Shown: positions 5,146 through 33,307 of the stretch, piece after piece
Position numbering within the stretch: the first letter of the stretch is position 1
How the letters are laid out: each line of letters opens with the position of its first letter
DNA from: Brevundimonas diminuta ATCC 11568
GTDB lineage: Bacteria; Pseudomonadota; Alphaproteobacteria; Caulobacterales; Caulobacteraceae
Assembly: GCF_000204035.1 (NCBI RefSeq)
Contig: NZ_GL883084.1
Location: 501,585 to 535,525, forward strand
Length of the DNA: 33,941 bases
Direction: 5' to 3'
Translations under genes and position numbers: made by a program
Notes under the pieces: model-generated
Seen by the model: only the letters and a program-made list of their open reading frames with translations
Told to the model about the DNA's origin: nothing
Databases searched by the model: none

Positions 5146-6141
5146 ATGACTGCTTTCTCCGTTCCTTCCTCTCCTGAACAACTCGCCGCCATGTCCGACC
5201 GGGCGCGCGAAGTCGTGCGCCTGAACATAGAAGCGCTGGAGGCGCTGGAACGTTCGCTGGATTCCTCGATCGCGCGCGCGGCCGACATCATCCTGTCGCG
5301 CCCCGGCTATGTCGTGGTGACGGGCATGGGCAAGTCGGGCCACATCGGCGGCAAGATCGCCGCCACCCTGGCCTCGACGGGCACCAACTCCTTCTTCGTC
5401 CACCCGGCCGAGATGAGCCATGGCGACCTGGGCATGCTGCGCCCCGACACCACCCTGCTGGCGCTGTCCAACTCGGGCGAGAGCCGCGAACTGCGCGATC
5501 CGCTGATCTTCTGCGCGCGCAACGACATTCCGGTGATCGGCGTCACCCAGCGGCCCCAGAGCTTCCTGGGCCGTCATTCCGCCGTATGCCTGACCATGCC
5601 CAAGGTGGCCGAGGCCTGCCCCAACGGCCTGGCGCCGACGACCTCGACGCTGATGTCCCTGGCCATGGGCGACGCCCTGGCCATGGTGCTGATGGACCGA
5701 CGCGGCTTCACGCGGGAAGATTTCGGCCTGCACCATCCCGGCGGCGCCCTGGGCATGAGCCTGCAGACCGTACGCGAGTGGATGGGCGACAACGCCGCCG
5801 CTCCGGCCAGCGTGCCCCTGGACGCCGACTTCGGCGCCGTCGTCTCGGCGATCACCGAAGGGCGCAAGGGGGCGGTCGCCGTCCTGGCCGCCGACGGGGC
5901 CCTGGCCGGCATGATCACCGACGGCGACCTGCGCCGCGCCCTCACCCGCGACGTCAGCGCCGTCCGGGCGGAAGACATCATGAGCCGCAGCCCCATCACG
6001 GTCGATCCGGACTCCCGCATGAGCGACGTGGTCGACCTGCTGAGCGCCAACAAGATCAGCAATCTGTTCGTGGTCGATGACCGCCGCCCCGTCGCCATCA
6101 TCCATATCGCCGAACTGATGCAGGCGGGCTATGTGTCCTGA
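5146..6141 (+). CDS. kdsD: D-arabinose-5-phosphate isomerase (KdsD/KpsF/GutQ family)
   Basis: Interconverts ribulose-5-phosphate and arabinose-5-phosphate, the first step toward Kdo for LPS (or capsule linkers). It has 331 residues. An N-terminal SIS sugar-isomerase domain (about residues 45-180) shows VVVTGMGKSGHIGGKIAATL, FFVHPAEMSHGDLGML and LSNSGESRE. The linker LHHPGGALG is followed by two CBS domains (about 205-330; DIMSRSPITVDPD, MSDVVDLLSANKISNLFVVD). ATG at 5146 has GGAG six bases upstream. The stop overlaps the next gene (TGATG), so it is coupled to the glycosyltransferase and the Wza-like exporter. That context slightly favours a KpsF role in surface-polysaccharide synthesis, but if no second copy exists it would also serve LPS. 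Confidence 0.93.
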   Translation: MTAFSVPSSPEQLAAMSDRAREVVRLNIEALEALERSLDSSIARAADIILSRPGYVVVTGMGKSGHIGGKIAATLASTGTNSFFVHPAEMSHGDLGMLRPDTTLLALSNSGESRELRDPLIFCARNDIPVIGVTQRPQSFLGRHSAVCLTMPKVAEACPNGLAPTTSTLMSLAMGDALAMVLMDRRGFTREDFGLHHPGGALGMSLQTVREWMGDNAAAPASVPLDADFGAVVSAITEGRKGAVAVLAADGALAGMITDGDLRRALTRDVSAVRAEDIMSRSPITVDPDSRMSDVVDLLSANKISNLFVVDDRRPVAIIHIAELMQAGYVS

Positions 6142-7406
6142 TGCCTGAGGACATTCTGTTCGACGCCAGCCGGCTGCTCAGCCGTACCGAACGCAGCGCC
6201 CCGACTGGCGTGGACCGCGTTTGCTTGGCCTACGCCGAATGGCTGATCGAGCACCCGACCTATCGGATGACGCCCGTACGGGCGCGAAAGGATCAACTGG
6301 CGCGCGTCGACAACGACTGGTTCCGCGAACGCCTCGCTGAACTGCGCACCCGCTGGACGGGCCCCGGCGCCGTGACGGAACTGGGCCCCGAAGCCCGCAA
6401 GCTGTTCGACGCCCTGCGCTCGCCTGACGACGGAGCCTCGATCATAGGACGCGCGCCCGAAGAAAAAGCGCCGCCCAAGACCAAGCCGAAACGGATCTGG
6501 AAGCAGTACTTCAGGTCGCGCCGCATCGCCGCACCTCCATCGGCGCGAGCCTATATAAATGTCGGGCATACGAGCCTGAACACGCCCGACATCCTTACGT
6601 CCCTGGCCGGCGGAGGTATTGAGCGGATCATCATGGTCCACGACCTGATCCCCGTGACCCATCCCGAGTTCTGCCGCCCCGGCGACGGCTTGAAGCATGT
6701 GCGACGGATGACCAACGTGCTGCGCCACGCCTCGCGGATCATCGTCAATTCCCAGTACACAGCCGACGAACTGAAAGGCTTCGCCGACCAGTCGAACATC
6801 GCCGCCCCGCCGATCGAAGTCGCGCATCTGGGGCTGGAGCGCACCTTCGACAGCCGCACGACGATTGCACCCGCTCGCCCCTACTTCCTGCACGTCGGCA
6901 CGATCGAGGCGCGAAAGAACCTGGCCTTCCTGCTGACCGTCTGGCGCCGGTTGCAAGAAACCATGGGCGCCGACACGCCGCGCCTGGTCCTGGTCGGCCG
7001 ATACGGCTGGGAAAACGAGGCCGTGCTGGACCACCTGCAACGCTCGCCCAATCTACGCGGCCTCGTGCACCAGGCCGAAAACCTGCCTGACTGCGCCCTT
7101 TCGGCTCTGATGCGGGGCGCACGCGCCATGGTCGCACCCTCATCGGTGGAAGGCTTCGACCTGCCCGCCGTCGAGGCCAGCGCCATGGGCGTGCCCCTCA
7201 TCGCCTCGAACATCGCCGCCCACCGCGAACTGGTCCCGCACGCCCGCCTGATCGATCCGCTGGACGGCCTGGGATGGCTGGCCGCGCTTGAGGACTGGAC
7301 CCGCAATTCGCCGGTCGCGCCGCCCTATTCTCCGCCCAACTGGGACCAGCATTTCGATGTCGTCCAGCAACGGGTGCTGTGCGCCTCTGGCGGCGCAGCC
7401 GCCTGA
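6141..7406 (+). CDS. glycosyltransferase family 4 protein
   Basis: 421 residues, cytosolic, no signal peptide or membrane helix. The C-terminal Rossmann-like donor domain carries the typical GT4 signatures HVGTIEARKNLAFLL (about residues 249-263) and SSVEGFDLPAVEASAMGVPLIAS (about 331-353), in which the E-x7-E pair holds the nucleotide-sugar. The N-terminal acceptor half begins LFDASRLLSRTERSAPTGVDRVCLAY, a form often seen in polysaccharide-locus glycosyltransferases. It starts on the TGATG overlap with kdsD and is followed by the export lipoprotein gene. I infer that it adds a sugar to a surface-polysaccharide repeat unit or Kdo-linked glycan. The sugar donor and acceptor cannot be read from sequence. 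Confidence 0.88.
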   Translation: MPEDILFDASRLLSRTERSAPTGVDRVCLAYAEWLIEHPTYRMTPVRARKDQLARVDNDWFRERLAELRTRWTGPGAVTELGPEARKLFDALRSPDDGASIIGRAPEEKAPPKTKPKRIWKQYFRSRRIAAPPSARAYINVGHTSLNTPDILTSLAGGGIERIIMVHDLIPVTHPEFCRPGDGLKHVRRMTNVLRHASRIIVNSQYTADELKGFADQSNIAAPPIEVAHLGLERTFDSRTTIAPARPYFLHVGTIEARKNLAFLLTVWRRLQETMGADTPRLVLVGRYGWENEAVLDHLQRSPNLRGLVHQAENLPDCALSALMRGARAMVAPSSVEGFDLPAVEASAMGVPLIASNIAAHRELVPHARLIDPLDGLGWLAALEDWTRNSPVAPPYSPPNWDQHFDVVQQRVLCASGGAAA

Positions 7407-7441
7407 AGGGTAAGCATCTGATGGAACTGCACCGAGGCCCT

Positions 7442-8590
7442 ATGTCCAGAACCGCCGCCAGCCTGCTCATCGTCGCTCTTCTGGCCGGATGCTCGACCCT
7501 GCCGCGCGACGGGCCATCCGGCCGCAACGTGGTTCAAGGCTCGTCCTCACCGGAGCGGGCGGGCGACTACGCGCTCGTCGATCTGGACTTCGCGCTGAGC
7601 GAACGGCTGAAGGCGGCGCCCCCGCCGTCCTTCTCGAGCTTGGCGCTCGCCTCCAGCGAAGCGCCCACGGATGTGATCGGCGTCGGCGACACCCTTGCCG
7701 TCAGCATCTTCGAACCGGGCGGCAGCCTGTTCGGCAGCGGCTCGCCACGCGACGGCGCCAGCAGCGGCAACCAGACCCTGCCGCCGCTGATGGTCAACCG
7801 AAACGGCTCCGTCCCGATCCCCTTTGCCGGCGAAGTGACCGTGCAAGGCCTTACCCCGTCGCAGGCCTCGGCGGCCATGCGCCGCGCCCTGGTCGGCAAG
7901 GTCGCCAATCCCCAGGTGGTCGTCACCATCGCGGGCAACGCCTCCAACGCCGTCACCGTGCTTGGGGACGTGCGCAGCCCCGGACGCCAGCCCCTATCAG
8001 CCAACAGCGACCGCATCCTCGACGTCATCGCCGCCGCCGGCGGCCCGTCGCGTTCGCTGCACGACATCGACGTGCGCATCCAGCGCGACGGCAAGGTCTA
8101 TACGGCCCCGATGTCGATCGTCACCACCGAGTTCAACGAGAACGTGCGCCTGCAGCGGGGCGATCAGGTCAACCTGGTCTACAAGCCTCGCCGCTTCAGC
8201 TCCTTCGGCGCCTTCAACGCCGTGGCGCGCAGCGAACTGCCGCCCGGCCCGCTGACCCTGGCCGAGGCGCTCAGCGGCGTCGGCGGCCTGGATTCCAACA
8301 TCGCCAACGCCCGTTCGGTTCTGGTTTTCCGTTTCGAGCGGCCGGAAGTGGCCCAGGCCCTGGGCATCCAGCAGCCCGTCACCTCGCGCGGGGTGCCGGT
8401 GGTCTATCGCCTGAACCTGGCCGAGGGCGAAGGCTTCTTCATCGCCAGCAATTTCCAGATGCAGTCGGACGATCTCATCTACACGCCGCGTGCAGGCGCG
8501 GCTGAGATGCGCAAATTCTTCGAAGTGGTCCAGAGCATCACCCGCGTCGTCTACGACGTCTCGGTCACCGGCAACCTGAGCCTGAACTAA
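7442..8590 (+). CDS. Wza-type polysaccharide export outer-membrane lipoprotein
   Basis: 382 residues starting MSRTAASLLIVALLAGC, a lipoprotein signal whose lipobox LAGC puts the lipidated Cys at residue 16-17. A Poly_export (PES) domain follows: GVGDTLAVSIFEPGG, then NRNGSVPIPFAGEVTVQGLTPSQA. SLBB-type repeats follow (VTVLGDVRSPGRQPLS; RILDVIAAAGGPSRSLHDIDVRI; a second set near LTLAEALSGVGGLDSN). Such proteins form the octameric outer-membrane channel for capsule, EPS or holdfast polysaccharide. In Caulobacterales HfsD is the holdfast counterpart. Two starts are possible: ATG 7421 (after AAGGG) or ATG 7442 (GAGG four bases upstream); I prefer 7442 because it gives a normal-length lipoprotein leader. 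The polymerase, flippase and Wzc-type kinase are not in the window. Confidence 0.9.
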   Translation: MSRTAASLLIVALLAGCSTLPRDGPSGRNVVQGSSSPERAGDYALVDLDFALSERLKAAPPPSFSSLALASSEAPTDVIGVGDTLAVSIFEPGGSLFGSGSPRDGASSGNQTLPPLMVNRNGSVPIPFAGEVTVQGLTPSQASAAMRRALVGKVANPQVVVTIAGNASNAVTVLGDVRSPGRQPLSANSDRILDVIAAAGGPSRSLHDIDVRIQRDGKVYTAPMSIVTTEFNENVRLQRGDQVNLVYKPRRFSSFGAFNAVARSELPPGPLTLAEALSGVGGLDSNIANARSVLVFRFERPEVAQALGIQQPVTSRGVPVVYRLNLAEGEGFFIASNFQMQSDDLIYTPRAGAAEMRKFFEVVQSITRVVYDVSVTGNLSLN

Positions 8591-8595
8591 AGGCG

Positions 8596-9102
8596 ATGCT
8601 GAGCCGCTTCGGACGCCGTCGCGACGACCGAGGCGGCGAGCAGGCTGTCGTTCCTTCTGACGCCTTGTCGGACGGCGTGGACAGCCTGCTTGCGGAAGTC
8701 GCCGCCATAGAGACGGCCGCGTGCGACGTCTATGGCCGTCACGGCCTACCCGCCCAGCCGGGTCAGTACCGTCGACAGGGTGAGAACGGCGCCCGGGAGA
8801 AACTGGCCGATCAACTCACCCCTGCCGAGAAATGGGCGATGATCCAGGCCGCGCCGTCCGAAGAAGGCTGGCGCTTCGCCTCGCTGGACGGCATAGGCGC
8901 GCGCTCTACGATCCCTGAGATACGACATGCCTCCGCCGTGCTGGCGGCCTGTCGCGGCCTGCGTCAGAGACTGACCGACGCCGAACCCATAACGCCGCAG
9001 GATCTGGCCGACGCAATCCGCCTGGGCGCCGCCTGGCGTCGCCTGGACGCCGAAAACGCCGCCTCTCCTCTGCTGTTCAAACCGCCCGCCAGCAGCCGCT
9101 AG
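8596..9102 (+). CDS. hypothetical protein of the polysaccharide operon
   Basis: 168 residues starting 5 bp after the export lipoprotein stop, preceded by AAAGGCG, so probably cotranscribed. The sequence is soluble, without signal peptide or membrane helix. It begins with a basic stretch ([15 protein letters not shown]) and is helical and alanine-rich further on ([57 protein letters not shown]). I recognise no family or catalytic motif. Position suggests an accessory role in polysaccharide synthesis or export, but nothing in the protein proves it. Its TAG stop shares the palindrome CTAG with the TAG stop of the convergent LLM gene, so the two coding regions overlap by 4 bp. Confidence 0.75.
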
Positions 9103-10094
9103 GCGGACGCCAGCCCGGTCGCCGCGGCGAGCAGCTCGAGCGAGCGCACGCGGGCGGCCGGATCCCATATCTGGCTGGTCAGCATCAGCTCGTCCGCGTC
9201 GGTCTGGGCGATGAAGGCGTCGAGGGCGGCCTTGGCCGTCGCGGGCGCGCCCACCGCCGAACAGGCCAGGGCGACGTCGATCATGCCGCGCGCCGCGCCG
9301 TCCAGCCGTTCGTAGTAGCCCTCGACCGGCGGCGGCAGCTTGCCGGGGCGGCCGGTTCTCAGGTTAACGAAAGCCTGCTGGACCGAAGTGAACAGCAGGC
9401 GCGCCGCCTCGTCCGTGTCAGCCACAAAGGCGTTGTAGCCCAGCATGACGTAAGGCTTCTCAAGATGCGGCGATGGACGGAAGGTCTGGCGATAGATGTC
9501 GAGGGCCCGCAGCATCTCGCCCGGCGCAAAATGGCTGGCGAAGGCGTAAGGCAGGCCCAGGTGCGCCGCCAGCTGGGCGCCGTAGGTCGAGGAGCCGAGG
9601 ATCCAGGTCGGCACGGCCTGGCCCTCGCCCGGATTGGCGATGATGCGCTGATCCGGCGTCGCGGGCGCGAACCACTGCATCAGCTCCATCACGTCCTGAG
9701 GGAAGGCGTCGTGGTCGCCCTGAAGCGTGCGGCGCAAAGCTCGCGCCGTCGCCTGATCCGAGCCAGGCGCGCGGCCGAGGCCCAGGTCGATCCGACCGGG
9801 GTGAAGCGCGTTCAGGGTGCCGAACTGCTCGGCGATGACCAGGGGGGCGTGGTTGGGCAGCATGACCCCGCCGGCGCCGACGCGGATGGTCTTCGTCGCC
9901 GCCGCCACCGCGCCGATGACGACCGAGGTCGCGGCGCTGGCGATGCCCGGCATGTTGTGATGCTCGGCCAGCCAGTAGCGATTGTAGCCCAGCCGTTCGG
10001 CGTGGCGGGCCAGATCAATGGTGTTGGCGAGCGCCTGCCCCACGTCGGAGCCTTCCGGCACGGGGGCGAGGTCGAGAATGGACAGAGGGATCAT
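9099..10094 (-). CDS. LLM class flavin-dependent oxidoreductase (luciferase-like)
   Basis: 331-residue TIM-barrel protein of the bacterial-luciferase superfamily, MsnO8-like in the shape of its N-terminus ([15 protein letters not shown]). Characteristic blocks are [63 protein letters not shown] and [27 protein letters not shown]. Members use FMN(H2) or F420; in a proteobacterium FMN is more likely. The substrate is unknown. The frame continues 18 codons upstream to 10148, but MIPLSILD matches the family start. It is transcribed opposite to the polysaccharide operon and downstream of the DUF3617 gene. The gap to that gene is 72 bp, so cotranscription is possible but not compelling. Confidence 0.9.
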
Positions 10095-10166
10095 CCGACC
10101 GATATGGGGGCCGCTTTTCAGCGACGCCATACCGGCCGTGACGATCAATCGTCTATGGGCGGGCGC

Positions 10167-10679
10167 TTACTGACCGGCGGGGCAGTCGCCGATGCGCTCG
10201 GCGGTCATGGTGACCTTGGTCTGGGCCATCTGCGGCGTCGGCGCCGGGTCCATCTTGGTCGTGACCTCGGTGACGTAGCGGCTGTTGAAGTCGCCGGTCA
10301 CGCGGATGGTGGAGTCGGCCTTCATATTGCCCGGCAAGGTGCAGGACGAGGTGGCGACCATGGCGTCGCCCTCACGCGCGAACGGCTTGGTCGTACAGTC
10401 GGCGCCCGGCTGCTGGGCGCTGGCCGGGGCCTCAAGCTTGGCTTCCTTGATGCAGACTTCCTGCGGCGGGACGGCGGCGCCGCCCGGCATGCCTTCCATG
10501 GCGGTGGACACGCGCCACAGGCCCGGCTTGGGCGCATCGAGCGTCGCCGGCGCGGCGGCCGTCGAAGCGGTCTCAGCCCCGTCAGCGGCCGGAGTTTCGG
10601 CCTTGTTGTTGTTGTTTCCGCAGGCCGACAGACCCAGCAGGCAGGCGATGGCGACGCCGCCGATGATCGCTGAACGCAT
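10167..10679 (-). CDS. DUF3617-like lipoprotein
   Basis: 170 residues. Residues 1-20 form a lipoprotein signal (MRSAIIGGVAIACLLGLSAC), with lipidated Cys20 followed by an Asn-rich GNNNN and a Thr/Ala linker. The globular part reads KPGLWRVSTAMEGMPGG, QEVCIKEAKLEAP, SSCTLPGNMKADSTIRVTGDFNS and ends TMTAERIGDCPAGQ. The PG-x-W start, paired cysteines and the C-terminal ER-x-G-DC block are typical of DUF3617 proteins, which are common in Sphingomonadales and Caulobacterales. Function is unknown; predicted location is the periplasmic face of a membrane. The upstream region (10680-10753) separates it from engB and contains an imperfect CCCCTC/GAGGGG inverted repeat. Confidence 0.8.
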   Translation of the reverse strand: MRSAIIGGVAIACLLGLSACGNNNNKAETPAADGAETASTAAAPATLDAPKPGLWRVSTAMEGMPGGAAVPPQEVCIKEAKLEAPASAQQPGADCTTKPFAREGDAMVATSSCTLPGNMKADSTIRVTGDFNSRYVTEVTTKMDPAPTPQMAQTKVTMTAERIGDCPAGQ

Positions 10680-10753
10680 GGAGCGCTCCCCTCTCGTTAA
10701 GAACCGAGGGGGACAACGCCGGTCTGGCTTAACGGTTCACGCGGATGTGAGAT

Positions 10754-11422
10754 TCAGTCGAGGACGACGCCCGTGGTGCGCATGATCTCGGCGCGCAGTT
10801 CGGGCAGGCCGAAACCCTTTTCCGACGAAGTGACGGCGACGTGGGGATAGGCGGCCGGGCGCTTGGAGATGGCCTTCAGCGTCGCCGCCTGGACCTTTTC
10901 GGCCTCGCCCTTCTTCAGCTTGTCGGCCTTGGTCAGGACGATCTGATAGGAGACGGCCGACAGGTCCAGTGCGTCCAACGCCTCGTCGTCGACCTTCTTC
11001 AGGCCGTGGCGGCTGTCGATCAGCAGATAGACGCGCTTCAGCGTCACCCGGCCGCGCAGATAGTCGCGGCCCAGATCCTGGAACTTCTTGACCGTGGTCT
11101 TGGACGCCTTGGCCCAGCCGTAGCCGGGCAGATCGACCAGACGCATCCGCCCGTCCAGGTCGAAGAAGTTGACCTCGCGCGTGCGGCCCGGCTCGTTGGA
11201 GGCCCTGGCCAGCTTGTGCATGCCGACCAGGCCGTTGATCAGACTGGACTTGCCCACATTGGAGCGGCCGGCGAAGGCGATCTCGGGCAGGTCCGGAGTC
11301 GGCAGCTGCTCGATCTTGGCGCAGCCCAGGACGAAGCTGGCCTGGCGCGCGAACAGGACGCGCGCCGCCTCGATCTCGGCGTCGGAATATTCCCCGACCT
11401 TGGGCTCGTCAGACGCGTCCAA
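10754..11422 (-). CDS. engB: ribosome biogenesis GTP-binding protein EngB/YihA
   Basis: 222-residue Ras-like GTPase required for 50S subunit assembly. G1 is [16 protein letters not shown] (about residues 50-65), a switch region [13 protein letters not shown] follows, G3 is [12 protein letters not shown]4 is [10 protein letters not shown] and G5 lies in [14 protein letters not shown]. Length and motif spacing are normal for EngB. It starts 4 bp after the yidC stop and is the last gene of rpmH-rnpA-yidC-engB, the usual alphaproteobacterial arrangement. The ~40-residue N-terminal extension with [19 protein letters not shown] is normal for the family. Confidence 0.96.
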
Positions 11423-11426
11423 CCGA

Positions 11427-13229
11427 TCAGGCCTTCTTGAAGCGGGCGAGGAAGGCGTCGATCGGGTTCTCGGCCTTGAAGCGATGCATGATCACATACT
11501 GCTGGATGATCGACAGCACGTTGTTCCACGCCCAGTAGATCAGCAGGCCGGCCGCGAACGGGGCCATGATGAAGGTGAAGACGATCGGCATCAGGGCGAA
11601 GATCTGGCGCTGCATCGGATCCTGCGCCGGCGGGTTCATCGCCATCTGCAGCCACATGGTGAAGCCATAGACCAGGGGCAGCACGCCCAGGTGCAGCGGG
11701 CCGTTCAGGATGCCGCCCAGGATCGGCAGGGTCGCCGGATCCCACGGAATGGCGCCGAACAGGTTCCAGATCGTCGAAGGGTCGCGCGCCGACAGGTCGC
11801 GGATCCAGCCGAAGAAGGGCGCGTGACGCATTTCAATGGTCACGAACAGCACCTTGTACAGGGCGTAGAAGACCGGGATCTGCACCACCATCGGCAAGCA
11901 GCCCGCCAGCGGATTGATCTTCTCCCGCTGATACAGGGCCATCATCTCCTGCTGCTGCTTCTGCGGTTCGGAGCCGTGCTTCTTCTTGATCTCCTCCATC
12001 TTGGGCTGGAGGTTCCGCATCTTCGAGAGGCTCTCGTACGACTTGTTGGCCAGCGGGAAGAGGATCAGCTTGACCACCACCGTCAGGGCCAGGATGGCCA
12101 AGCCGAAGTTGCCCAGGACGCCGTAGAAGAACTCCACCACGGTGAAGATCGGGCGCGTCAGGAACCAGAACATGCCCCAGTCGATGGCGTAGACGAAACG
12201 CGGCAGGTTCAGCGACTGCTCATAGGCCTTCAGCACCTCGGCGCGCTTGGCCCCGGCGAACAGACGCTGGGTCTCCTCGATCTGGCGGCCCGGCTGGATG
12301 GTGTGGGTGGCGCCCAGCATGGCGGCTTCGTGGATGTTCATCCCCTGGGCGTCGCGCACCGAGAAACGGCCCTCGATGGTCTCGTCCTGGGTGGGGATCA
12401 GGGCCGCCAGCCAGTATTTGTCGGTGATGCCCAGCCAGCCGCCGGTCGATTGGTTCTCGATGCGCGGCTTCTTGGCCCAGTCCTTGTACTTGACCTGTTC
12501 GGTCGAATAGCCGCCCCCGTCGCCGAAGGTGCCGATGGCGCCTTCGTGCAGGATCATCTGCTTGCCCAGGTCGACCGGAACACCCTGGCGCTCGACGCGG
12601 CCGTAGGGAGCGATGGCGATGGCCTGGGTTCCCAGGTTGGCGACCGTATCCTTGACCGTGAACATGTACTGGTCGTCGATCGAGACGACGCGCGTGAAGC
12701 GCAGGCCCGAACCGTTGTCCCAGGTCAGTTCGACCGGAGTGGTCGGCGTCAGGGTCGAGCCCTTGGTCAGGCGCCAGACGGTGTTGGGGCCGGGCACGCC
12801 GCCGGCGACGTTCGGGCCGCTCCAGCCGAACTGGGCGAAATAGGCGTGCTCCATGCCCTGCGGGCGGAACAGCTCGACCGGCGGGGAATTCTTGTCCAGC
12901 GTCTCGCGGTAGCGGGTCAGATACAGGTCGTCGATGCGCGCGCCCTGCAGCGACAGCGAGCCCTTCAGGGTCGGGGTCTGGATCGGCACGCGCGCGACCG
13001 TGCCCAGGGCCTGGGCGCGATCCTTGATGAAGACGCCCGGCGCGGCGCCCGACGGCGTCAGGCCGGCGTCGGCGGAAGCCTCGCGCGCCTTCTGCTGCTC
13101 GGCGGCGACGATCTGCGCCTGGCGGCGGCTCTCGGCCTGCGGGCGCATCACCATGAAGTAGTAGACGCCCATGATCAGGGCCGCGCACACGAAGAAGATG
13201 ATGGTGTTGCGCGAGTTCTCGTTCTGCAT
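11427..13229 (-). CDS. yidC: membrane protein insertase YidC
   Basis: 600-residue inner-membrane insertase/chaperone (Oxa1 family) that integrates proteins with or without SecYEG. TM1 is [20 protein letters not shown] at the N-terminus. A large periplasmic beta-sandwich domain occupies about residues 70-350. The Oxa1 core follows (about 370-590): [19 protein letters not shown], the cytoplasmic hairpin [13 protein letters not shown] through [21 protein letters not shown], and the last helices [20 protein letters not shown] and [14 protein letters not shown]. It starts 5 bp after rnpA. The small yidD gene often found between rnpA and yidC is absent here. Confidence 0.97.
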
Positions 13230-23290: not shown

Positions 23291-24148
23291 ATGCGTCGGA
23301 TGGCATGGGCAGGATGGATGATCGCGGCGGTCGCCCCGACGACCGTTTTCGCCATGCCGCAAACCGTTGTGGAAGGCCCCATCGCCGCGCGCGGCGGCGA
23401 CGCCATCCGGTTCGAGGACGCCGCCGCCCGGCTGGACAGCCGCCTGCCCTTCACCGCCGAACCTGACGCCGCCTTCGGCGCCCCGGTGCAGTTCAACGAT
23501 GTCGCCCGGCTGAGCGCCGATCAGGGCGAACTGCGTCAGGAAGCCTGGTTCGCCGGCGACGGCTTCACCGACCGACTGCGGATCACCACGACTGGAGAAC
23601 TGCGTCGCGCCGACGGCTCGCCCGCGCCGCCGCGCGCCCTCGACCCCGTCGCCTTCTCGGGCGAGAGCTATGACGTCACCTATACGCGCGGCTGGACCGC
23701 CGCCAAGGGCCGCACGGCCTCGGGTCTGGAGGTGTCGCTGACGCCCCACGCCGGCTTCGGCGTCGGCAGCGACGGCCCCTCGGCCGAGGCGGGCGCCACC
23801 CTGCGCATCGGCGAGAACCTGGACCGCCTGGCCCCCAACGGCGACGAGGCCTTCGGCGAGCGGCCGCGCTGGTATCTGTACGCGGCCGGGTCCAAGCGGG
23901 CGGTCGGCTACAACTTCGCCCGCACCCGCGACGGCGACTTCGCCCGGTCCGGGGTCAGCCAGGACGCCGGAACCTACCTGGGCGACGCCTCCATCGGCGT
24001 GGCCTATCGCCGGGGCTCAGTGCAGAGCTCCTTCGGCGTCGTCTATCGCGAGATCGAGGCCAAGGGCCTGCGCGGCTATCAGGGCATCAGAACCGATGTG
24101 TCGGAAGGCCTGGTGGCCTTCCAACTGACGATCCGCCCGCCGCGCTAG
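23291..24148 (+). CDS. LpxR-like (DUF2219) outer-membrane protein
   Basis: 285 residues with a Sec signal (MRRMAWAGWMIAAVAPTTVFA). The mature part is rich in alternating beta-strand sequence. The C-terminal third, RPRWYLYAAGSKRAVGYNFART, DAGTYLGDASIGVAYRRGSV and SSFGVVYREIEAKG, resembles the end of LpxR lipid A 3'-O-deacylase family barrels (pattern G-D-x-x-x-G-V-A then VYR-x-x-E). The N-terminal catalytic Asn/Asp/His cluster of true LpxR is not evident, so it may be a non-catalytic relative. GGGAGG nine bases upstream supports ATG 23291; the frame continues upstream to 23162 but across the nrdA terminator. It converges with ggt with 15 bp between the stops. Confidence 0.6.
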   Translation: MRRMAWAGWMIAAVAPTTVFAMPQTVVEGPIAARGGDAIRFEDAAARLDSRLPFTAEPDAAFGAPVQFNDVARLSADQGELRQEAWFAGDGFTDRLRITTTGELRRADGSPAPPRALDPVAFSGESYDVTYTRGWTAAKGRTASGLEVSLTPHAGFGVGSDGPSAEAGATLRIGENLDRLAPNGDEAFGERPRWYLYAAGSKRAVGYNFARTRDGDFARSGVSQDAGTYLGDASIGVAYRRGSVQSSFGVVYREIEAKGLRGYQGIRTDVSEGLVAFQLTIRPPR

Positions 24149-26094: not shown

Positions 26095-26171
26095 GCACCC
26101 GTAGCTCAGCTGGATAGAGCACCAGACTACGAATCTGGGGGTCAGGAGTTCGAATCTCTTCGGGTGCGCCA
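26095..26171 (+). tRNA. tRNA-Arg (anticodon ACG)
   Basis: A 77-nt cloverleaf. Acceptor stem GCACCCG pairs with CGGGTGC (26161-26167), followed by discriminator G and an encoded CCA. The D-arm is GCTC-AGCTGGATA-GAGC, the anticodon arm CCAGA-CTACGAA-TCTGG with anticodon ACG, the variable loop GGGTC, and the T-arm has TTCGAAT in its loop. A34 would be deaminated to inosine by TadA to read CGU/CGC/CGA. No integrase or element boundary is seen beside it. Confidence 0.97.
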
Positions 26172-26413: not shown

Positions 26414-27169
26414 ATGGTGACGCGCGCGGTCAGCGTGCGCCGTTCCGTATCCGCGCCGGCCGATCTGGCCGCCCTGCGCAATCTCGCCTCCATCACCCGA
26501 CTGAGCGATGAAGAACGCGCCCTGATCCGACGGTTGTGCGTGTTTCAGGAGGCCGTGCCCGCGGGCCAGCCTTTCGATCCCGACGGCCGAGCCGCCTCGC
26601 CGCGCCTGATCCTGAGCGGATGGGCGTGCCGCCAACGCATCCTGGCCGACGGTCAGCGCCAGATCTTCGGCTTCCTGCTGCCCGGAGATTCCGTAGGGCT
26701 GAGCCTTGATCCGCGTCCGCTGGACGAGACGACCATCATCGCCCTGACGCGGGTCGAATATGTCGACGCCCTGATGCTGCGCGAGATCCTGGCGCTTCAA
26801 GACCCGCGCCACGATCGGCTGCGCCGCGCCCTGGCGACGTCGCGCCGATACGAGGAAACCTGCCTGCTGAACCATGTGGTGCGGCTGGGCCGGCAATCCG
26901 CCCAGGCGCGTCTGGCCCACCTGCTGCTGGAGTTGCGCGACCGGCTGCAGCGCGCCGGGCTGTGCACCAGCGACCGCCTGCACCTGCCGCTGACCCAGGA
27001 GACCCTGGCCGACGCCCTGGGGCTGAGCCTGGTCCATGTCAGCCGCACGCTGGGCCAGATGCGGCGCGGGCGGCTGATCGCCATGCAGAGCGGCTGGGTC
27101 ACCCTTCTGGACGAGGCCCATCTGCGCGCCGCCAGCGACTATGGCGTCGACGACCACGCCCTTCACTGA
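26414..27169 (+). CDS. Crp/Fnr-family transcriptional regulator
   Basis: 251 residues from ATG 26414. The N-terminal cyclic-nucleotide-binding-like beta-roll (about 15-130) includes LSGWACRQRILADGQRQIFGFLLPGDSVGL. A long dimerisation helix follows, then the C-terminal winged helix-turn-helix (about 180-235) with LTQETLADALGLSLVHVSRTLGQMRRGRLI as recognition unit. There is no N-terminal four-cysteine Fe-S cluster, so it is not an O2-sensing Fnr, and the cAMP-site Arg-Ser pair is not evident, so its signal is unknown. The frame is open to 26354 upstream; GTG 26417 is another possible start. It precedes the FapF-like gene by 31 bp on the same strand and probably shares its transcript, so it is the natural candidate regulator of the amyloid locus. 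Confidence 0.88.
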   Translation: MVTRAVSVRRSVSAPADLAALRNLASITRLSDEERALIRRLCVFQEAVPAGQPFDPDGRAASPRLILSGWACRQRILADGQRQIFGFLLPGDSVGLSLDPRPLDETTIIALTRVEYVDALMLREILALQDPRHDRLRRALATSRRYEETCLLNHVVRLGRQSAQARLAHLLLELRDRLQRAGLCTSDRLHLPLTQETLADALGLSLVHVSRTLGQMRRGRLIAMQSGWVTLLDEAHLRAASDYGVDDHALH

Positions 27170-27200
27170 AACCCGAACGAAAAGAGAGAGAGCGAGCGTC

Positions 27201-28550
27201 ATGAGCCCCCACCGACAACCGTCTCGGCCCCGCCCGCCTCTTTCACCGCATCGACCGCCGCGCCGGACCGGGTCCACGCTGCGAATGATCGGCGCCTCGG
27301 TCGCCATGGCGGCCCTGCTGGCCCCCGGCGCCGCCCTGGCCCAGGACGAAGAGCTGGCGGCGCGGGTCGCGCGGCTGGAAGCTCTGGTCATCGAGCAGCA
27401 ACGCCGTATCGAGGCGCAGGAAGCCCTGTTGAACGAACGCGCCGCCATGGCGCCGCCGTCCGTCGATCCGCGCTGGCAGGTGCAGACCGACGCCTCGGGC
27501 CGAGCGGTCTTCGCAGATCGAACCCTGAACCAGTTGCGCGCCGGCCAGCAGGTCGCCAGCACCATCGCGCCCAACGGTCCGGCCCAACCGACCCTGCCCC
27601 CGAGCGAAGCCCCGCCGCCGCCCGCGCCCGAGGTGCGGCGCGAGCAGCTGGCCGCCATTCCCGAAGGCATCGCCGTGCTGAGCCAACCGGGCAAATTCAC
27701 CCTGGACGTCTCGACCGAGTACACGCGCTCCAGCGCCAACCGCCTGGTGTTCCGAGGCATCGAGATCGTGCCCGGCGTGCAGATCGGGGTGATCGAGGCC
27801 AATGAGGCGGATCGCGACACCGGCGTCGTCACCCTGGCCGGGAAATACGGCATCGGGCCGCGCATGGAAGCGGAGCTGCGCGTGCCCTACGTCTGGCGCA
27901 ACGACACCATCACCACCGTGCAGCAGCGCGACGAAGCGGTGACGCGGACCATCGACCTGAGCGGCGACGGCGTCGGCGACGTCGAAGCGGCCCTGCGCTA
28001 TCAGATCAACGGCGGCGAGCGCGGACGCCCCATCTTCATCGCCGGCCTAAGGGTCAAGAGCGACACGGGCGAAGGACCGTTCGACATCGATCGCGACGAG
28101 TTCGGCATCGCCACCCGCCTGGCCACAGGCTCGGGATTCTGGGGTGTCGAGCCCAGCATCAGCTTCCTGTACCCCAGCGATCCGGCGGTCATTTTCGGCA
28201 GCCTGAGCTACTTCGCCCACCTGCCGCGCGACATCAACAAGACCGAGGGCGAGATCCGCATCGGCGAGGTCGATCCCGGCGACGCCATCGGCCTGTCGAT
28301 CGGTTTCGGCTTCTCGCTGAACCCGCGCTTCTCCTTCTCGCTGGGCTACAAGCACAACTACATTCGGCCGACGACGAGCGAGTTGAACGACATCACCGAA
28401 AAGTCCGATGCGCTTCAGGTCGGCGCCCTGCAGTTCGGCATGTCCTACCTGCTGAACGACCGCTACAGCCTGAACGGCAATTTCGAGTTCGGCGTGACCG
28501 AGGATGCGCCGGACATGCGCTTCATCCTGCGCCTGCCGATCGTCTTCTGA
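27201..28550 (+). CDS. FapF-like outer-membrane secretion barrel with N-terminal coiled coil
   Basis: 449 residues. A basic, Pro/Arg-rich n-region leads into a signal peptide (MIGASVAMAALLAPGAALA, cleavage near residue 47). A short coiled coil follows (about 50-82: ELAARVARLEALVIEQQRR) and then a Pro/Ala-rich linker (about 122-145). The rest is beta-barrel (about 165-449), with strands such as GKFTLDVSTEYTRSS, RMEAELRVPYVWRND and FGFSLNPRFSFSLGYKHNYI, and a terminal Phe (RLPIVF) as BAM signal. Coiled coil plus linker plus barrel is the architecture of FapF, the trimeric channel that exports Pseudomonas Fap amyloid subunits. The start could instead be ATG 27285, giving a shorter leader. It follows the Crp/Fnr gene and converges on the C39/amyloid operon. 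Family call is by architecture, not by alignment. Confidence 0.72.
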   Translation: MSPHRQPSRPRPPLSPHRPPRRTGSTLRMIGASVAMAALLAPGAALAQDEELAARVARLEALVIEQQRRIEAQEALLNERAAMAPPSVDPRWQVQTDASGRAVFADRTLNQLRAGQQVASTIAPNGPAQPTLPPSEAPPPPAPEVRREQLAAIPEGIAVLSQPGKFTLDVSTEYTRSSANRLVFRGIEIVPGVQIGVIEANEADRDTGVVTLAGKYGIGPRMEAELRVPYVWRNDTITTVQQRDEAVTRTIDLSGDGVGDVEAALRYQINGGERGRPIFIAGLRVKSDTGEGPFDIDRDEFGIATRLATGSGFWGVEPSISFLYPSDPAVIFGSLSYFAHLPRDINKTEGEIRIGEVDPGDAIGLSIGFGFSLNPRFSFSLGYKHNYIRPTTSELNDITEKSDALQVGALQFGMSYLLNDRYSLNGNFEFGVTEDAPDMRFILRLPIVF

Positions 28551-28559
28551 CATGAAGAA

Positions 28560-28581
28560 GGGGCCGCCCGACGGCGGCCCC
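28560..28581. terminator. hairpin between the convergent FapF-like gene and the C39 operon
   Basis: GGGGCCGCC (28560-28568) and GGCGGCCCC (28573-28581) form a perfect 9-bp stem with a CGAC loop between the two convergent stops. On the minus strand it is followed by TTCTTC. Neither side has a long T-run; it may act in both directions. Confidence 0.6.
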
Positions 28582-28603
28582 TGAGAGACTCGAACGCTGC
28601 GGC

Positions 28604-29296
28604 CTAGAAGCCGCCCAGACTTCTGAGTCCGGCCCAGTCAATGTCGCGGGCGATGTTCGATCCGTAGTTGTGCATCTGACTGTTGGTCTGGATCGTCGCC
28701 AGGTCAGGCAGGACCAGGTTCAGCTCCATGTCCTGGCGGATGTTGCGATTATCGGCGTTGTTGATGATCAGGTTCTGCAACTGGCTGGTCGTGATGTTGT
28801 GCAGGATCGCCGTCGCGCCCGAGCCGTCCACCACCGCCACCCCGCCGGTGTTGCTCAATCCGCGAAGGTCGATGCCGCCCGCCACCAGGCTGGCCATAGC
28901 GCCTGCCAGATCAGCCACGCCGGGGACGTTGTGCTGAACCTGCTGACTTACGGGTCCGGTCGGCGTCCAGGTCAGTTGCGTCTGAAGAGCCAGCTGATCG
29001 TTCACATAGGAACGGACCACCACGCCGAAACCGAAGGTGAAGCCTCCCGCCGTCATGAAGCCGCCACGCGCCTCGGACATGTCCGCGTCCGTCATGATCT
29101 GAGGCCCGCGCATGACCTCGACCGGCGTAGCAACCGGCGATGGCGCCGCCGACGGCGGGGTCGCGAAGGGCTCCAGAGAGGCGTCACCGACAAGCTCGGC
29201 GGCGAAGGCGACGGATTCGGCCGAGACCGGCGCCGCCAGACTGACCGGCGCCAGGCAGGTCATGACGAGCAGAATGCTTGAACGCGCGCGTCTCAT
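28604..29296 (-). CDS. secreted protein of the amyloid locus with GG-type leader motif (FapE-like position)
   Basis: 230 residues. The signal peptide is MRRARSSILLVMTCLAPVSLAAPVSA. After a Pro/Ala-rich stretch comes IMTDADMSEARGG (residues 67-79), which fits the double-glycine leader pattern (hydrophobic at -12, acidic at -8, hydrophobic at -7, small/hydrophobic at -4, GG at -2/-1). The remainder is glycine- and beta-rich (GGFTFGFGVVVRSYVN), then NITTSQLQNLIINNADNRNI and RQDMELNLVLPDLATIQ. This last part resembles the N-x-G/D-N-x-N-x-x-Q motif of the other secreted proteins in the operon. GAGG eight bases upstream supports ATG 29296, 5 bp after the C39 gene. Gene order (fibre, small protein, C39, this) parallels fapB/C-D-E, so FapE is the closest analogue. 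No catalytic residues seen. Confidence 0.7.
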   Translation of the reverse strand: MRRARSSILLVMTCLAPVSLAAPVSAESVAFAAELVGDASLEPFATPPSAAPSPVATPVEVMRGPQIMTDADMSEARGGFMTAGGFTFGFGVVVRSYVNDQLALQTQLTWTPTGPVSQQVQHNVPGVADLAGAMASLVAGGIDLRGLSNTGGVAVVDGSGATAILHNITTSQLQNLIINNADNRNIRQDMELNLVLPDLATIQTNSQMHNYGSNIARDIDWAGLRSLGGF

Positions 29297-29301
29297 GGTC
29301 G

Positions 29302-30033
29302 TCACCTCAGATAGGGATCGAGGGAGAAACGCGTCGTCACTTGATACAGCGGCGGCAACTCCCGCGTCAGTTCCGCCAAGGACATGGGCTGAAGCGCCTG
29401 CCCCGGCCGCGACCGGTTCCAGATGCGCCACTCCTCGGCGTCGTTGAAGGTGTCCGCCGGCTGGCGGACGACGAAGGCGACTCCATTCCACATGGCGGTG
29501 AACTGGTCGCGCGAATAGATCTTCAGGCCCAGGGCCGGATCGCCGACCAGGACATGGCCCGCGTCATCGCCCTTGAAGACCACGAAATGTTTGTAGCCGG
29601 CCGTGTCGATCATCACGATGGCCGGAGCGTTCATCTCGATCAGCTCGTCCAGGCTGAGCCGGAAGCCGTCGGCGGGATAGCCGCGCGCGTCGAGGTAGCG
29701 CTTCATGTCCAGCAGGGAGAAGCCGACGCGGCGGATGGTCTCCTGATCCCCGTCGGCGAACATGGCGCGGAACACCTGAGCCTCGCCGACATCGCGGCCG
29801 TAGTGATGGCGCAAAAGGGTGGCCAGAGCCGCCGAGCCGCAGCTGAAGTCGTACTGCTGGCGCACCACGGTGCGGAACGGCAGGTCGCGATAGCTGACCA
29901 CCTTCACTCGGCCCGCGGCGGGACCGTTGTTCAGCAGGATCTCGGCCTGGGCCGAAGCCGCAGACAGGGCCGGCAAACCCGCCACGGCGGCCAGGCCCAG
30001 GTTGAGCAGAAGCCGGGCGGACGAGCGTGTCAC
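29302..30033 (-). CDS. periplasmic C39-family cysteine peptidase (FapD-like)
   Basis: 243 residues with signal peptide (LNLGLAAVAGLPALSAASAQA, cleavage near 30), so exported rather than fused to an ABC transporter. The papain-like core has the nucleophile Cys in QQYDFSCGSAALATLL (about residue 65) and GFSLLDMKRYLDARGYPADG. The catalytic His is in GYKHFVVFKGDD and the Asp in HVLVGDPALGLKIYS. This combination, including the GFSLLDMKRYL block, is what I expect of FapD, the C39 protease of fap operons. It should cleave after double-glycine-like motifs in secreted partners. The start is GTG at 30033, overlapping the preceding stop as GTGA, so it is translationally coupled. About 40 extra residues (from PADTFNDAEEW) follow the core. 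Confidence 0.9.
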   Translation of the reverse strand: MTRSSARLLLNLGLAAVAGLPALSAASAQAEILLNNGPAAGRVKVVSYRDLPFRTVVRQQYDFSCGSAALATLLRHHYGRDVGEAQVFRAMFADGDQETIRRVGFSLLDMKRYLDARGYPADGFRLSLDELIEMNAPAIVMIDTAGYKHFVVFKGDDAGHVLVGDPALGLKIYSRDQFTAMWNGVAFVVRQPADTFNDAEEWRIWNRSRPGQALQPMSLAELTRELPPLYQVTTRFSLDPYLR

Positions 30034-30431
30034 GGGTTCGGAGCCGTCGTCACGATATTGATCGTGATCGCGCCTTGCAGGTTGTTGTTGTTGCCGCTGT
30101 TCATGACGAAATTGCCGATGCCGTTGAAACCGGAAAAGGCGTTGGCGTCGATACGCATCCCGCCCGTCGTCACGGTGTTGGCGTTGACGCTGTTGCCGCT
30201 GTTGGTCGCCTGCAGCAGTTGGTCGCTGGCGATGACCACCGACGACGCGCCCTGACGGCCGTGCAACGCATCCAGTTCGTCAACAGCCAGCGACCGCGGC
30301 CCTGTGGCGGCGGTTGAAGCGTCAACGGGAGCCGGAGCGACAATGATGAAAGGCGGAGGGGGCGTCGGCGGAGAGGCCGAATTCGGATCGGCCGCCCCCA
30401 GCAACGCCAGGGTCGACAGAATGCTGAGCAT
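30030..30431 (-). CDS. small secreted Asn-rich protein of the amyloid locus
   Basis: 133 residues. A short hydrophobic N-terminus (MLSILSTLALLGAA) is followed by a Pro-rich segment (SPPTPPPPFIIVAPAPVD). Residues 48-61 (LAVDELDALHGRQG) fit a C39 leader if the cleavage pair is GR instead of GG: Leu at -12, Glu -8, Leu -7, Leu -4. The C-terminal half is Asn-rich and beta-prone: LLQATNSGNSVNANTVTTGG, then DANAFSGFNGIGNFVMNSG and NNNNLQGAITINIV. The last block matches AFAGFAGIQTVSNNTG of the putative fibre protein. GGGAGGG lies just before ATG 30431. It overlaps the C39 gene by 4 bp. It could be a minor fibre subunit, nucleator or chaperone; no known family is recognised with confidence. Confidence 0.78.
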   Translation of the reverse strand: MLSILSTLALLGAADPNSASPPTPPPPFIIVAPAPVDASTAATGPRSLAVDELDALHGRQGASSVVIASDQLLQATNSGNSVNANTVTTGGMRIDANAFSGFNGIGNFVMNSGNNNNLQGAITINIVTTAPNP

Positions 30432-30454
30432 GGTTCCCTCCCAGGAAAAAGGAG

Positions 30455-30482
30455 TTCGGCGGCCGGAGGACCGGCCGCCGAA
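30455..30482 (-). terminator. hairpin/attenuator between the fibre gene and its accessory genes
   Basis: A perfect 12-bp stem TTCGGCGGCCGG/CCGGCCGCCGAA (30455-30466 with 30471-30482) with a 4-nt loop starts 8 bp after the 30491 stop. On the transcript strand it is followed by CTCC and five T (30446-30450). The T-run is offset by four bases, so termination is probably partial. This would give much more fibre mRNA than downstream mRNA. The stem may also protect the upstream 3' end. Confidence 0.75.
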
Positions 30483-30490
30483 ACGAAGGC

Positions 30491-31168
30491 TTAGTTACCG
30501 CCGCCGTTGCCGAAGGTGACGTTGGCGTTGGCGCTGATCGCCGTGGCCGCCTGACCAACCGAAGCCAGGCCGGTGTTGTTGCTCACCGTCTGGATGCCCG
30601 CGAAGCCTGCGAAGGCGCCGCCGCTCTGGTTGATGTCGCCGGTGCGAATCCGGCCGTTCTGCCGACCGTCATTGTCTTCCGACATGTCGAAGCTCAGGTT
30701 GCTGACGTTGGCGCTGAGCTCCTGCATGTTCAGGGACACACGGATGTCGCCGATATTGGTGGAGTTGTCGTTACCCGAGTCATTCACCGAATTGTCGTTG
30801 AAGGAGTCAGAGACCCCCAACTCCAGGTTGGTGTTGGTCGAGTTGTCAGTATTGGTCGAGTTGTCCGTATTGAACGAGTCGTCGACGCCCAGCTCCAGAT
30901 TGGTGTTGGTGGAGTTGTCCGAATTATCGTTCAACGAATCCGAAATGCCCACATCCAGGTCCGTGGAGTTGTCGGTGTTGAACGAGTCATCAACGTCCAC
31001 GTCCACATCAGTATCGGTGCTGTTGCCGCCGCTGTTGTAGGAGTCGGTCGCCGTGGTGTTGCCGCCGACCGCACCGTTCGGACCGCTCGAGGACTGAGCC
31101 TGAGCCATGCCCGCAAAAGCCAGAGCCCCAGCCAGGACCGCAGCAGACGTCATTAGTTTGGCACGCAT
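30491..31168 (-). CDS. repetitive acidic secreted protein, candidate functional-amyloid subunit
   Basis: 225 residues. Signal peptide MRAKLMTSAAVLAGALAFAGMAQA (cleavage about 24/25). The mature chain has no Cys or Trp, one Tyr, and is dominated by Asp, Asn, Ser, Thr and Gly. Residues 41-144 form about five imperfect repeats of 16-25 residues with consensus (S/D)DS(F/L/Y)N..NSTNTNLELGV. A spacer with SLNMQELSANVSNLSFDM follows. The C-terminal block DINQSGGAFAGFAGIQTVSN, then NTGLASVGQAATAIS, is shared in form with the small protein next door. Secreted low-complexity repeats beside a C39 peptidase and a FapF-like barrel are the profile of FapB/FapC. The start at 31168 has GGAGG seven bases upstream. 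That SD lies in a hairpin. Amyloid formation itself is inferred. Confidence 0.8.
   Translation of the reverse strand: MRAKLMTSAAVLAGALAFAGMAQAQSSSGPNGAVGGNTTATDSYNSGGNSTDTDVDVDVDDSFNTDNSTDLDVGISDSLNDNSDNSTNTNLELGVDDSFNTDNSTNTDNSTNTNLELGVSDSFNDNSVNDSGNDNSTNIGDIRVSLNMQELSANVSNLSFDMSEDNDGRQNGRIRTGDINQSGGAFAGFAGIQTVSNNTGLASVGQAATAISANANVTFGNGGGN
30737..31048 (-). repeat. tandem imperfect repeats coding the Asp/Asn/Ser/Thr units
   Basis: The repeats correspond to residues 41-144 of the fibre candidate. Units in order: TDSYNSGGNSTDTDVDVDV, DDSFNTDNSTDLDVGI, SDSLNDNSDNSTNTNLELGV, DDSFNTDNS-TNTDNS-TNTNLELGV, and SDSFNDNSVNDSGNDNST. The DNA is also repetitive (recurring TTGGTGTTGGTSGAGTTGTC and AACGARTCRTC on plus), so unit number may vary by slippage between strains. 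Confidence 0.85.

Positions 31169-31498: not shown

Positions 31499-33307
<1,809 letters not shown>

Follow-up and report, generated by a model that had tools for sequence, protein, structure and literature searches.

The closest described relatives of the system considered here are the Fap proteins of Pseudomonas, whose secretion requires the catalytic cysteine of the C39 peptidase FapD. FapE is found in vivo without its N-terminus in Pseudomonas, and the authors who reported this named FapE as the most likely FapD substrate, left the cutting of FapF by FapD possible and, in the available part of their 2017 paper, found no canonical C39 sequence in the Fap proteins and called the FapD target unclear (PMC5557850). 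A 2018 paper describes this target, in its available part, as ‘yet to be determined’ (PMC6173800), and a 2025 review states that FapD is thought to process FapF and the N-terminus of FapE (PMC12822426). Here we examine a locus at positions 26414-31168 of a 33,941-nucleotide stretch of DNA from Brevundimonas diminuta ATCC 11568 (the whole stretch is hereafter called the window), which sits on a 722-kb contig of a 3.37-Mb genome. We consider it probable, at roughly 70%, that this locus encodes an outer-membrane export system of the Fap type (FapD/FapE/FapF) whose substrates are its own and not those of Fap. This reading is based on sequence comparison, namely on homology to FapF, FapD and the N-terminal module of FapE, a conserved gene set, a leader motif present in two proteins and a unit common to two putative substrates.

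Six genes were called between a tRNA-Arg gene (26095-26171) and the next large gene, at 31499. The plus strand carries a Crp/Fnr-type regulator gene and a FapF-like barrel gene, and the minus strand carries closely spaced genes for two proteins that we name P231 and P133, followed by fapD and the gene for a FapE-type protein. The P133 and fapD genes overlap by 4 nucleotides, 5 nucleotides separate fapD from the FapE-type gene, and 59 nucleotides separate the P231 and P133 genes. These two blocks converge on a GC-rich hairpin. Judged by eye, the products of 28604-29296, 30030-30431 and 30491-31168 have signal-peptide-like N-termini. Gene calls were made with a simple home-made caller, which missed fapD in 9 of the 80 named loci discussed below. 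An initial annotation, made from the window alone, had placed a Crp/Fnr regulator, an exported C39 peptidase, a barrel protein and secreted proteins together in this interval, and all are present.

By eye, the barrel protein begins with a signal peptide, followed by a heptad-rich region, a proline-rich linker and then the barrel. Its match to the NCBIfam FapF model NF058560 (expect value, E, of 2.4e-38) bears out the initial assignment as a FapF homologue. The match to the FapF structure 5o67 in the PDB spans the whole barrel (5.3e-30 over residues 182-469, in the frame from 27141), and the only solved structures that match at E up to 1 are of four distinct FapF sequences. Both positions of the PTG motif described for FapF (PMC5557850) are kept, as DTG and ATG. 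It could be argued that the protein is instead a hydrophobic-compound uptake channel of the PF13557 (Phenol_MetA_deg) type with unrelated neighbours, as PF13557 does match it (5.5e-6) and FapF itself structurally resembles such channels (PMC6173800). However, the FapF profile match noted above stands against this idea, and FapD is present in all 18 sampled genomes of the same family whose barrel match reaches E<1e-10. This co-occurrence argues against the uptake-channel reading, which is disfavoured and in our view highly improbable. In four further family genomes the barrel matches are only weak and partial (1.5e-7 to 3.6e-4), and these genomes lack FapD at E<1e-25.

The barrel gene had also been regarded as moved to a convergent position. 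It is indeed convergent here, but 4 of 16 genera were already known to have fapF split off (PMC3792158), and convergent placement is common in the clade defined below, where fapF lies convergent and downstream in 31 of the 59 loci with a FapF match. A Crp/Fnr orthologue adjoins fapF in both same-genus relatives (L043 and L044). The pairing of fapF with a Crp/Fnr gene is seen in the three Brevundimonas loci, and other regulator-like genes accompany fapF, by eye, in several others.

The peptidase matches the FapD model NF058616 at 1.2e-47, as expected from its earlier assignment as a FapD homologue, and the PCAT (peptidase-containing ATP-binding cassette, or ABC, transporter) peptidase domains in the PDB at 2e-8 at best. 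Its catalytic triad (Cys65, His149 and Asp165) is invariant in 16 of 16 aligned members. Profile comparisons also support homology of the FapE-type protein to FapE, for the N-terminal module. An alignment of 12 FapE-type proteins against one of 12 canonical FapE proteins gave a hhalign probability of 94% (E=9.1e-8) over 32 columns of this module, and these columns include the leader motif. The NCBIfam FapE model NF058559 matches 7 of 72 FapE-type homologues (best 2e-4), and the window protein by itself has no family match, NF058559 included. AlphaFold2 predicts a confident beta domain at residues 91-190 (block means 85-94). Of the three secreted low-complexity proteins proposed initially, the product of 30491-31168 does have low complexity, but that of 28604-29296, with this confidently predicted domain, does not.

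The most informative feature of the locus, which was absent from the earlier reading of its parts, is the leader motif. The C39 peptidases of PCATs read the pattern L(-12)xxxE(-8)L(-7)xxxxG(-2)G(-1), with positions -10 to -4 forming a helix on a hydrophobic groove (PMC6959990). Both the FapE-type protein (MTDADMSEARGG) and P133 (LAVDELDALHGR) carry a stretch in this register, with conservative changes (Met at -12, Asp at -8 and Met at -7 in the former; Arg at -1 in the latter). AlphaFold2 places a helix at residues 70-76 of the FapE-type protein, or about -10 to -4, with a block predicted local distance difference test score (pLDDT) of only 66-68, and G78 and G79 of this protein are invariant in 12 of 12 sequences.

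We examined the position of this motif in 80 named loci, which were kept from a scan of GTDB contigs that gave at least 590 FapD relatives; these loci were drawn with FapD proteins of this clade among the matches listed and are not a random sample. A leader score of at least 4 was found in the gene downstream of fapD in 64 of 68 cases (shuffle mean 3.1) and in the gene upstream in 46 of 66 (shuffle mean 1.6), compared with 13 of 420 genes lying more than two genes from fapD (shuffle mean 16.8). The pattern was fixed after earlier loci had been seen, and at least L115, L116, L120 and L121 repeat contigs already seen. When homologues of each protein were searched, the strict pattern matched 44 FapE-type and 61 P133 homologues (shuffle means 0.4 and 0.2), the middle pattern 104 and 71 (4.0 and 2.1), and the loose pattern 118 and 114 (47 and 27), counted over the best 120 of 141 FapE-type and the best 120 of 820 P133 homologues, with many near-copies and the window's own protein included. 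A best motif, chosen with a preference for Gly-Gly-like ends, was obtained for 118 FapE-type homologues; all 118 have Arg at -3, 117 have Gly-Gly and 112 have Phe at +1.

The leader is also present in 11 of 12 canonical FapE sequences, which were picked for high FapD scores, and this fits the Pseudomonas facts that the catalytic cysteine is required and the FapE N-terminus is lost. Among other subunits, the strict, middle and loose patterns matched 1, 0 and 4 of 12 FapB sequences (shuffle mean 3.7 for the loose pattern), 0, 0 and 1 of 11 FapC sequences, and 0, 1 and 1 of 11 P231 sequences. Setting aside figures and supplements (including a 2017 supplementary figure on FapE motifs), we found no description of a double-glycine-type leader in FapE in open-licence PubMed Central text. 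What is already known is that FapE has been a suspected FapD target since 2017 (PMC5557850), and what appears to be new, relative to the text searched, is the leader, how widely it is spread, and P133 as a further candidate FapD substrate. The conserved leader would offer a precise candidate FapD site, in Pseudomonas as well as here.

Related stretches occur in other proteins of canonical loci. In 6 of 11 such loci (L092 9062, L093 8300, L094 4547, L095 8789, L097 7468 and L099 10648), proteins assigned to FapA by position only contain a stretch that resembles the leader and keeps its register, for example LSDRDIGGISSG, mostly with a Ser-Gly end, a tally that has no shuffle control; FapA is reported to be unprocessed. 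Extra exported proteins of approximately 100 residues, with an RGR or TGR leader and a common WDE motif, lie beside canonical fap genes at L097 8001-8327 and L098 5452-5754.

The gene set recurs in relatives. A FapD-model match was found in 31 of 119 sampled Caulobacteraceae genomes, although 13 of these matches are weak (5e-10 to 1e-4) and lie in open frames of 635-1170 codons, of the ABC-exporter kind. FapD at E<1e-25 is found in 18 genomes, and FapF at E<1e-10 in exactly these 18. With 20 stretches fetched from 17 of these genomes (all but the window's own), we found P231, P133, FapD and FapE-type genes in the same order, plus FapF, in 13 of the 18, the window's genome included; in one of the 13 (G003) the set is split over two contigs. 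The earlier expectations of a host in Caulobacterales and of genes that co-occur across genomes both hold. Of the five remaining genomes, G081 (locus L058) has Fap repeats, G019, G050 and G093 each have a protein of 353-373 residues beside fapD, and G025 (locus L061) has a protein of 119 residues that contains a leader-like stretch. Within the genus the distribution is patchy, with the system present in 3 of the 17 same-genus genomes listed, the window's included. Among 289 sampled alphaproteobacteria, in which at most 10 candidates were scored per genome, FapD was found at E<=1e-15 in 17. In 9 genomes FapD reaches E<1e-75, and FapE-type matches occur in precisely these 9 and in 0 of the 280 others.

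In this family, L056, L059, L060 and L062 represent another FapD/FapF locus type, in which fapD is preceded by the gene for an exported protein of 353-373 residues that carries a leader, for example LTDAQLGTVTAG. At L058 (6682-11851), three proteins have Fap repeats, and the locus also encodes FapD, FapF and a FapE-like protein whose leader contains EQRGGY.

We built a maximum-likelihood tree from 105 FapD proteins, which was rooted at its midpoint and has two long branches. A well-supported split (100/98) sets 87 proteins on one side, 73 of which have a P133 match nearby; the other side holds all 13 proteins with Fap repeats beside fapD, plus 5 others. The tree places the genomes with the full gene set in a well-supported clade spread over Proteobacteria. 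The 80 loci include Phenylobacterium, Caulobacter, Asticcacaulis, Sphingomonas, Novosphingobium, Magnetospirillum, Massilia, Halomonas, Marinobacter, Nitrosomonas and Geotalea, and FapD proteins of this clade with leader-bearing neighbours occur in Sphingomonadales, Rhodospirillales, Burkholderiales, Halomonas, Marinobacter, Nitrosomonas and others. A gene for FapD was called in 71 of the 80 loci. The fetched flanks of 59 of these 71 hold a FapF match, which lies no more than 5 kb away in 56. Two of the 71 loci have Fap repeats somewhere in their flanks. The initial annotation placed a Fap-type system in Caulobacterales, but the system is not special to this order.

Previous surveys bear on this breadth. 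The available part of a 2013 paper limits Fap to Beta-, Gamma- and Deltaproteobacteria (PMC3792158). Co-located fapD and fapF were reported in five further phyla in 2018 (PMC6173800), so the pairing itself is already known. A 2025 GTDB survey required the Fap repeat (PMC12392863), and because of this filter the clade described here would not be listed. We also observed a canonical Fap operon in an alphaproteobacterium (L103, G204, 6092-11500; FapB 6e-16, FapC 2e-20 and FapE 2e-22, plus FapD and FapF), and at least FapD, FapF and a Fap-repeat protein at L102 (G243). The 2013 survey had reported no Fap system from the Alphaproteobacteria. At L106 (G254, 5988-11370), the P231-P133-fapD-fapE-type set is present as a tandem duplicate with identical FapD copies.

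P133 has homologues at 96% identity over its full length in Brevundimonas diminuta and B. vancanneytii, and none of 13 aligned P133 members has a Pfam or NCBIfam match. P231 is acidic and of low complexity, with a mature isoelectric point of 4.05 and a single Lys/Arg in residues 36-145. It had been described as strongly repetitive, but its repetition is irregular, with no lag from 2 to 44 above 33% identity, and its DNA has only three short arrays, the top-scoring of 18 nucleotides x 2.8. The two proteins have a common C-terminal unit, as judged by hhalign with whole alignments (67% probability, 5.1e-5) and with the cut-out units (92.5%, 4.9e-7). In 52 of 70 aligned P231 members (the other 18 are off the motif pattern and were dropped), the variable region is 74-223 residues long and 49-92% Asp/Asn/Ser/Thr, and the end is a constant 35-42 residues from a FAGIQT motif. 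P231 was not sought systematically among the 80 named loci. Proteins of these kinds make up a large set of putative surface proteins that lack a family name and, where the sources name them, are called hypothetical protein, bar a few stray names.

The initial annotation took the subunits to be FapB and FapC, an assignment that we rejected. The Fap repeat (X15GX4NX3GX6NX7) was absent from 13 P133 and 11 P231 relatives by pattern search, and the same script found 34 matches in 12 FapB and 33 in 11 FapC sequences, two or three per sequence. Likewise, the NCBIfam FapB and FapC models match 0 of 13 P133 and 0 of 70 P231 members, and canonical operons did give matches to both. Absence of the repeat from the tested relatives indicates a sister of the Fap system rather than a plain member. 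No further small exported gene that might encode FapA was called at the locus, where no FapA model was run by itself, and FapA is missing in 6 of 16 genera (PMC3792158).

A subtler possibility is that this is a true Fap amyloid in which the repeats have diverged beyond recognition, with P133 corresponding to FapB, P231 to FapC, and the same cross-beta fold. P133 units align in register with FapB repeats (hhalign E=4e-4 over 14 columns) and with all Fap repeats (0.001), compared with 0.054 or worse against all Fap repeats for 12 column-shuffled controls (six P133 and six P231 units). P133 and P231 are also related to each other, as FapB and FapC are, and one Caulobacteraceae locus (L058) carries Fap repeats. 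A remote kinship of P133 units and Fap repeats is thus possible. However, P133 units reach only 0.021 against FapC, P231 units do not stand out (0.0077 for FapB, 0.38 for FapC and 0.034 for all), probabilities are 35% at best, each protein has a single unit rather than three, and the pattern and model searches gave no match at all. We therefore regard a diverged Fap amyloid as unlikely.

We are equally doubtful that FapF exports P231 as an unfolded, acidic, possibly calcium-binding surface brush, in which case the protein would be a non-polymerising secreted adhesin or matrix component. The composition and acidity of the variable region and its disorder in the AlphaFold2 model would suit such a role, but the constant end that P231 has in common with P133 suggests subunit contact, and homologous machinery exports amyloid in Pseudomonas. 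In FapC, variable-length linkers join the fixed repeats that form the core (PMC12392863). By analogy, the disordered, length-variable Asp/Asn-rich region of P231 is more likely a spacer than the fibre core, with the constant C-terminal unit as the likelier assembly part. The proposal that an acidic Asp/Asn repeat provides the fibre chemistry accordingly loses its appeal.

Several results weigh against a Fap-type export system with its own substrates. The barrel protein scores 132 bits against an equivalog cut-off of 700 for FapF, and the peptidase 162 bits against 330 for FapD, although such shortfalls are as expected of a distant group. No FapF match was found in 12 of the 71 named loci, some of which are short contigs. 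The leader is missing from the upstream gene in 20 of 66 loci and from the downstream gene in 4 of 68. Among the best motifs of 114 P133 homologues, position -2 is Gly in 71 and Ala in 43, and position -1 is Arg in 81, as it is in the window's P133; canonical FapE has Arg or Lys at -1. No FapE peptide was reported over the first ~70 residues in strain UK4, in the available part of that study (PMC5557850), which is more than the leader alone. The mean pLDDT of P231 is only 44 (blocks of 32-36 in the variable region and 44-71 in the C-terminal part), the Fap repeat is absent, and P133 and P231 are only putative fibre subunits.

Cleavage by C39 peptidases is unusual with Arg or Lys at -1, and so the motif could be a docking site only. 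On this account FapD would be a chaperone or docking platform and any cut would fall elsewhere, for example in FapF, whose cutting the 2017 paper leaves possible (PMC5557850). The Gly-Gly end of 117 of 118 best FapE-type motifs (a choice of match that favoured such ends), the triad invariant in 16 of 16 members and the need for the catalytic cysteine in Pseudomonas (PMC5557850) argue the other way, and we consider a purely docking role improbable, slightly more so than the two preceding alternatives.

If the locus is a Fap-type system with its own substrates, all components would leave the cytoplasm via Sec. In the periplasm, FapD would then dock with P133 and the FapE-type protein through their leader helices and cut after Gly-Gly or Gly-Arg, which could free or license both proteins for export, with P231, through a trimeric FapF barrel. 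Outside the cell, P133 and P231 may assemble with P133 as the minor or nucleating subunit and P231 as the major one. Their common C-terminal unit might be likened to the repeats common to FapB and FapC, and the acidic Asp/Asn-rich region of P231 would serve as a variable-length spacer. A broader proposal is that this is a second widespread surface-fibre export pathway and a sister of Fap. Before passing through the FapF barrel, its Sec-exported substrates would be matured at double-glycine leaders of the bacteriocin type by a periplasmic C39 peptidase, the leader in canonical FapE (degenerate in FapA) would be the FapD recognition site, and P133 and P231 would form a new fibre type invisible to surveys based on the Fap repeat. 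We give this broader proposal an even chance.

Table 1. Positions of genes, motifs and hairpins at the probable Fap-type locus (window coordinates)
Feature	Position	Strand	Evidence or remark
Crp/Fnr-type regulator	26414..27169	+	PF13545 4.9e-16; directly upstream of fapF-like gene
FapF-type barrel exporter homologue	27201..28550	+	NF058560 2.4e-38; alternative starts 27141, 27285
GC-rich 10-bp hairpin, possible shared terminator, no T-run	28559..28582	.	sequence; gap fold -24.5 kcal/mol
FapE-type protein	28604..29296	-	signal peptide, variable linker, leader motif, beta-rich mature domain
Double-glycine-type leader MTDADMSEARGG, FapE-type protein residues 68-79	29060..29095	-	motif register
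FapD-type exported C39 cysteine peptidase	29302..30033	-	NF058616 1.2e-47; PF03412 2.3e-19; Cys65/His149/Asp165
P133, small and exported; has a leader motif and a single C-terminal unit in common with P231	30030..30431	-	
Leader motif LAVDELDALHGR, P133 residues 48-59	30255..30290	-	motif register
12-bp GC-rich hairpin then CTCCTTTTTC, between P231 and P133 genes; candidate attenuator or mRNA-stabilising stem	30455..30482	-	
P231, putative major surface/fibre subunit	30491..31168	-	listed open frame starts 31186
Conserved C-terminal module of P231, residues 141-225, related to P133 C-terminus	30494..30748	-	hhalign

The hairpin that follows the P231 gene has a T-rich tail and may let the P231 message exceed the downstream message. 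Four terminator-like sites were found, with 3.3 expected by chance, and this stem is the longest of the four. A stem of at least 10 bp is present at the P231/P133 junction in 11 of 12 loci (11 from Caulobacteraceae plus L107, with L053 and L054 left out), compared with 0-7 per 100 shuffles of the same sequence for each. The T-run is weak in several loci, so an mRNA-stabilising role is as likely as attenuation. Elsewhere in the window, an LpxR-like outer-membrane protein gene (23318-24148; PF09982 5e-11) adjoins a gene for gamma-glutamyltranspeptidase.

Comparison with known systems helps to place the locus. Curli (csg) is alike in outline, with an outer-membrane pore for an unfolded surface subunit, but the locus has no curlin match: at E up to 1, Pfam curlin matched neither P231 nor P133 of the window, and 13 P133 members gave no match either. 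A CsgG-family gene occurs elsewhere in the genome (G000 contig 3, 2017-2631, E 1.7e-15), which we take to be, perhaps, a holdfast-anchor gene. The Fil putative pilus of Acinetobacter (FilB/FilC) likewise combines a C39 peptidase with a FapF-like barrel (NF050078 7e-41, NF050079 5e-17). However, both proteins score weaker to these models than to FapD and FapF and do not reach equivalog score (140 of 475 bits for FilB and 62 of 630 for FilC, the two proteins that this comparison covers). The Fap system of Pseudomonas (fapABCDEF) is closest, with a FapF barrel that is sometimes encoded outside the operon, a periplasmic C39 FapD and a FapE-type protein with the same leader. Unlike Fap, the locus is without the Fap repeat, P133 and P231 replace FapB and FapC, P133 has a leader, FapA was not seen (with no FapA model run by itself), and the window's FapD falls on the other side of a well-supported tree split. 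Finally, the bacteriocin double-glycine leaders read by PCATs have the same register (L-12, E-8, L-7, G-2 and G-1), but the FapD-type peptidase is free-standing and Sec-exported, and no ABC transporter is among the six genes of the locus. If true, our reading would take double-glycine processing from the cytoplasmic side of ABC exporters, where it is known, into the periplasm and into a non-ABC pathway.

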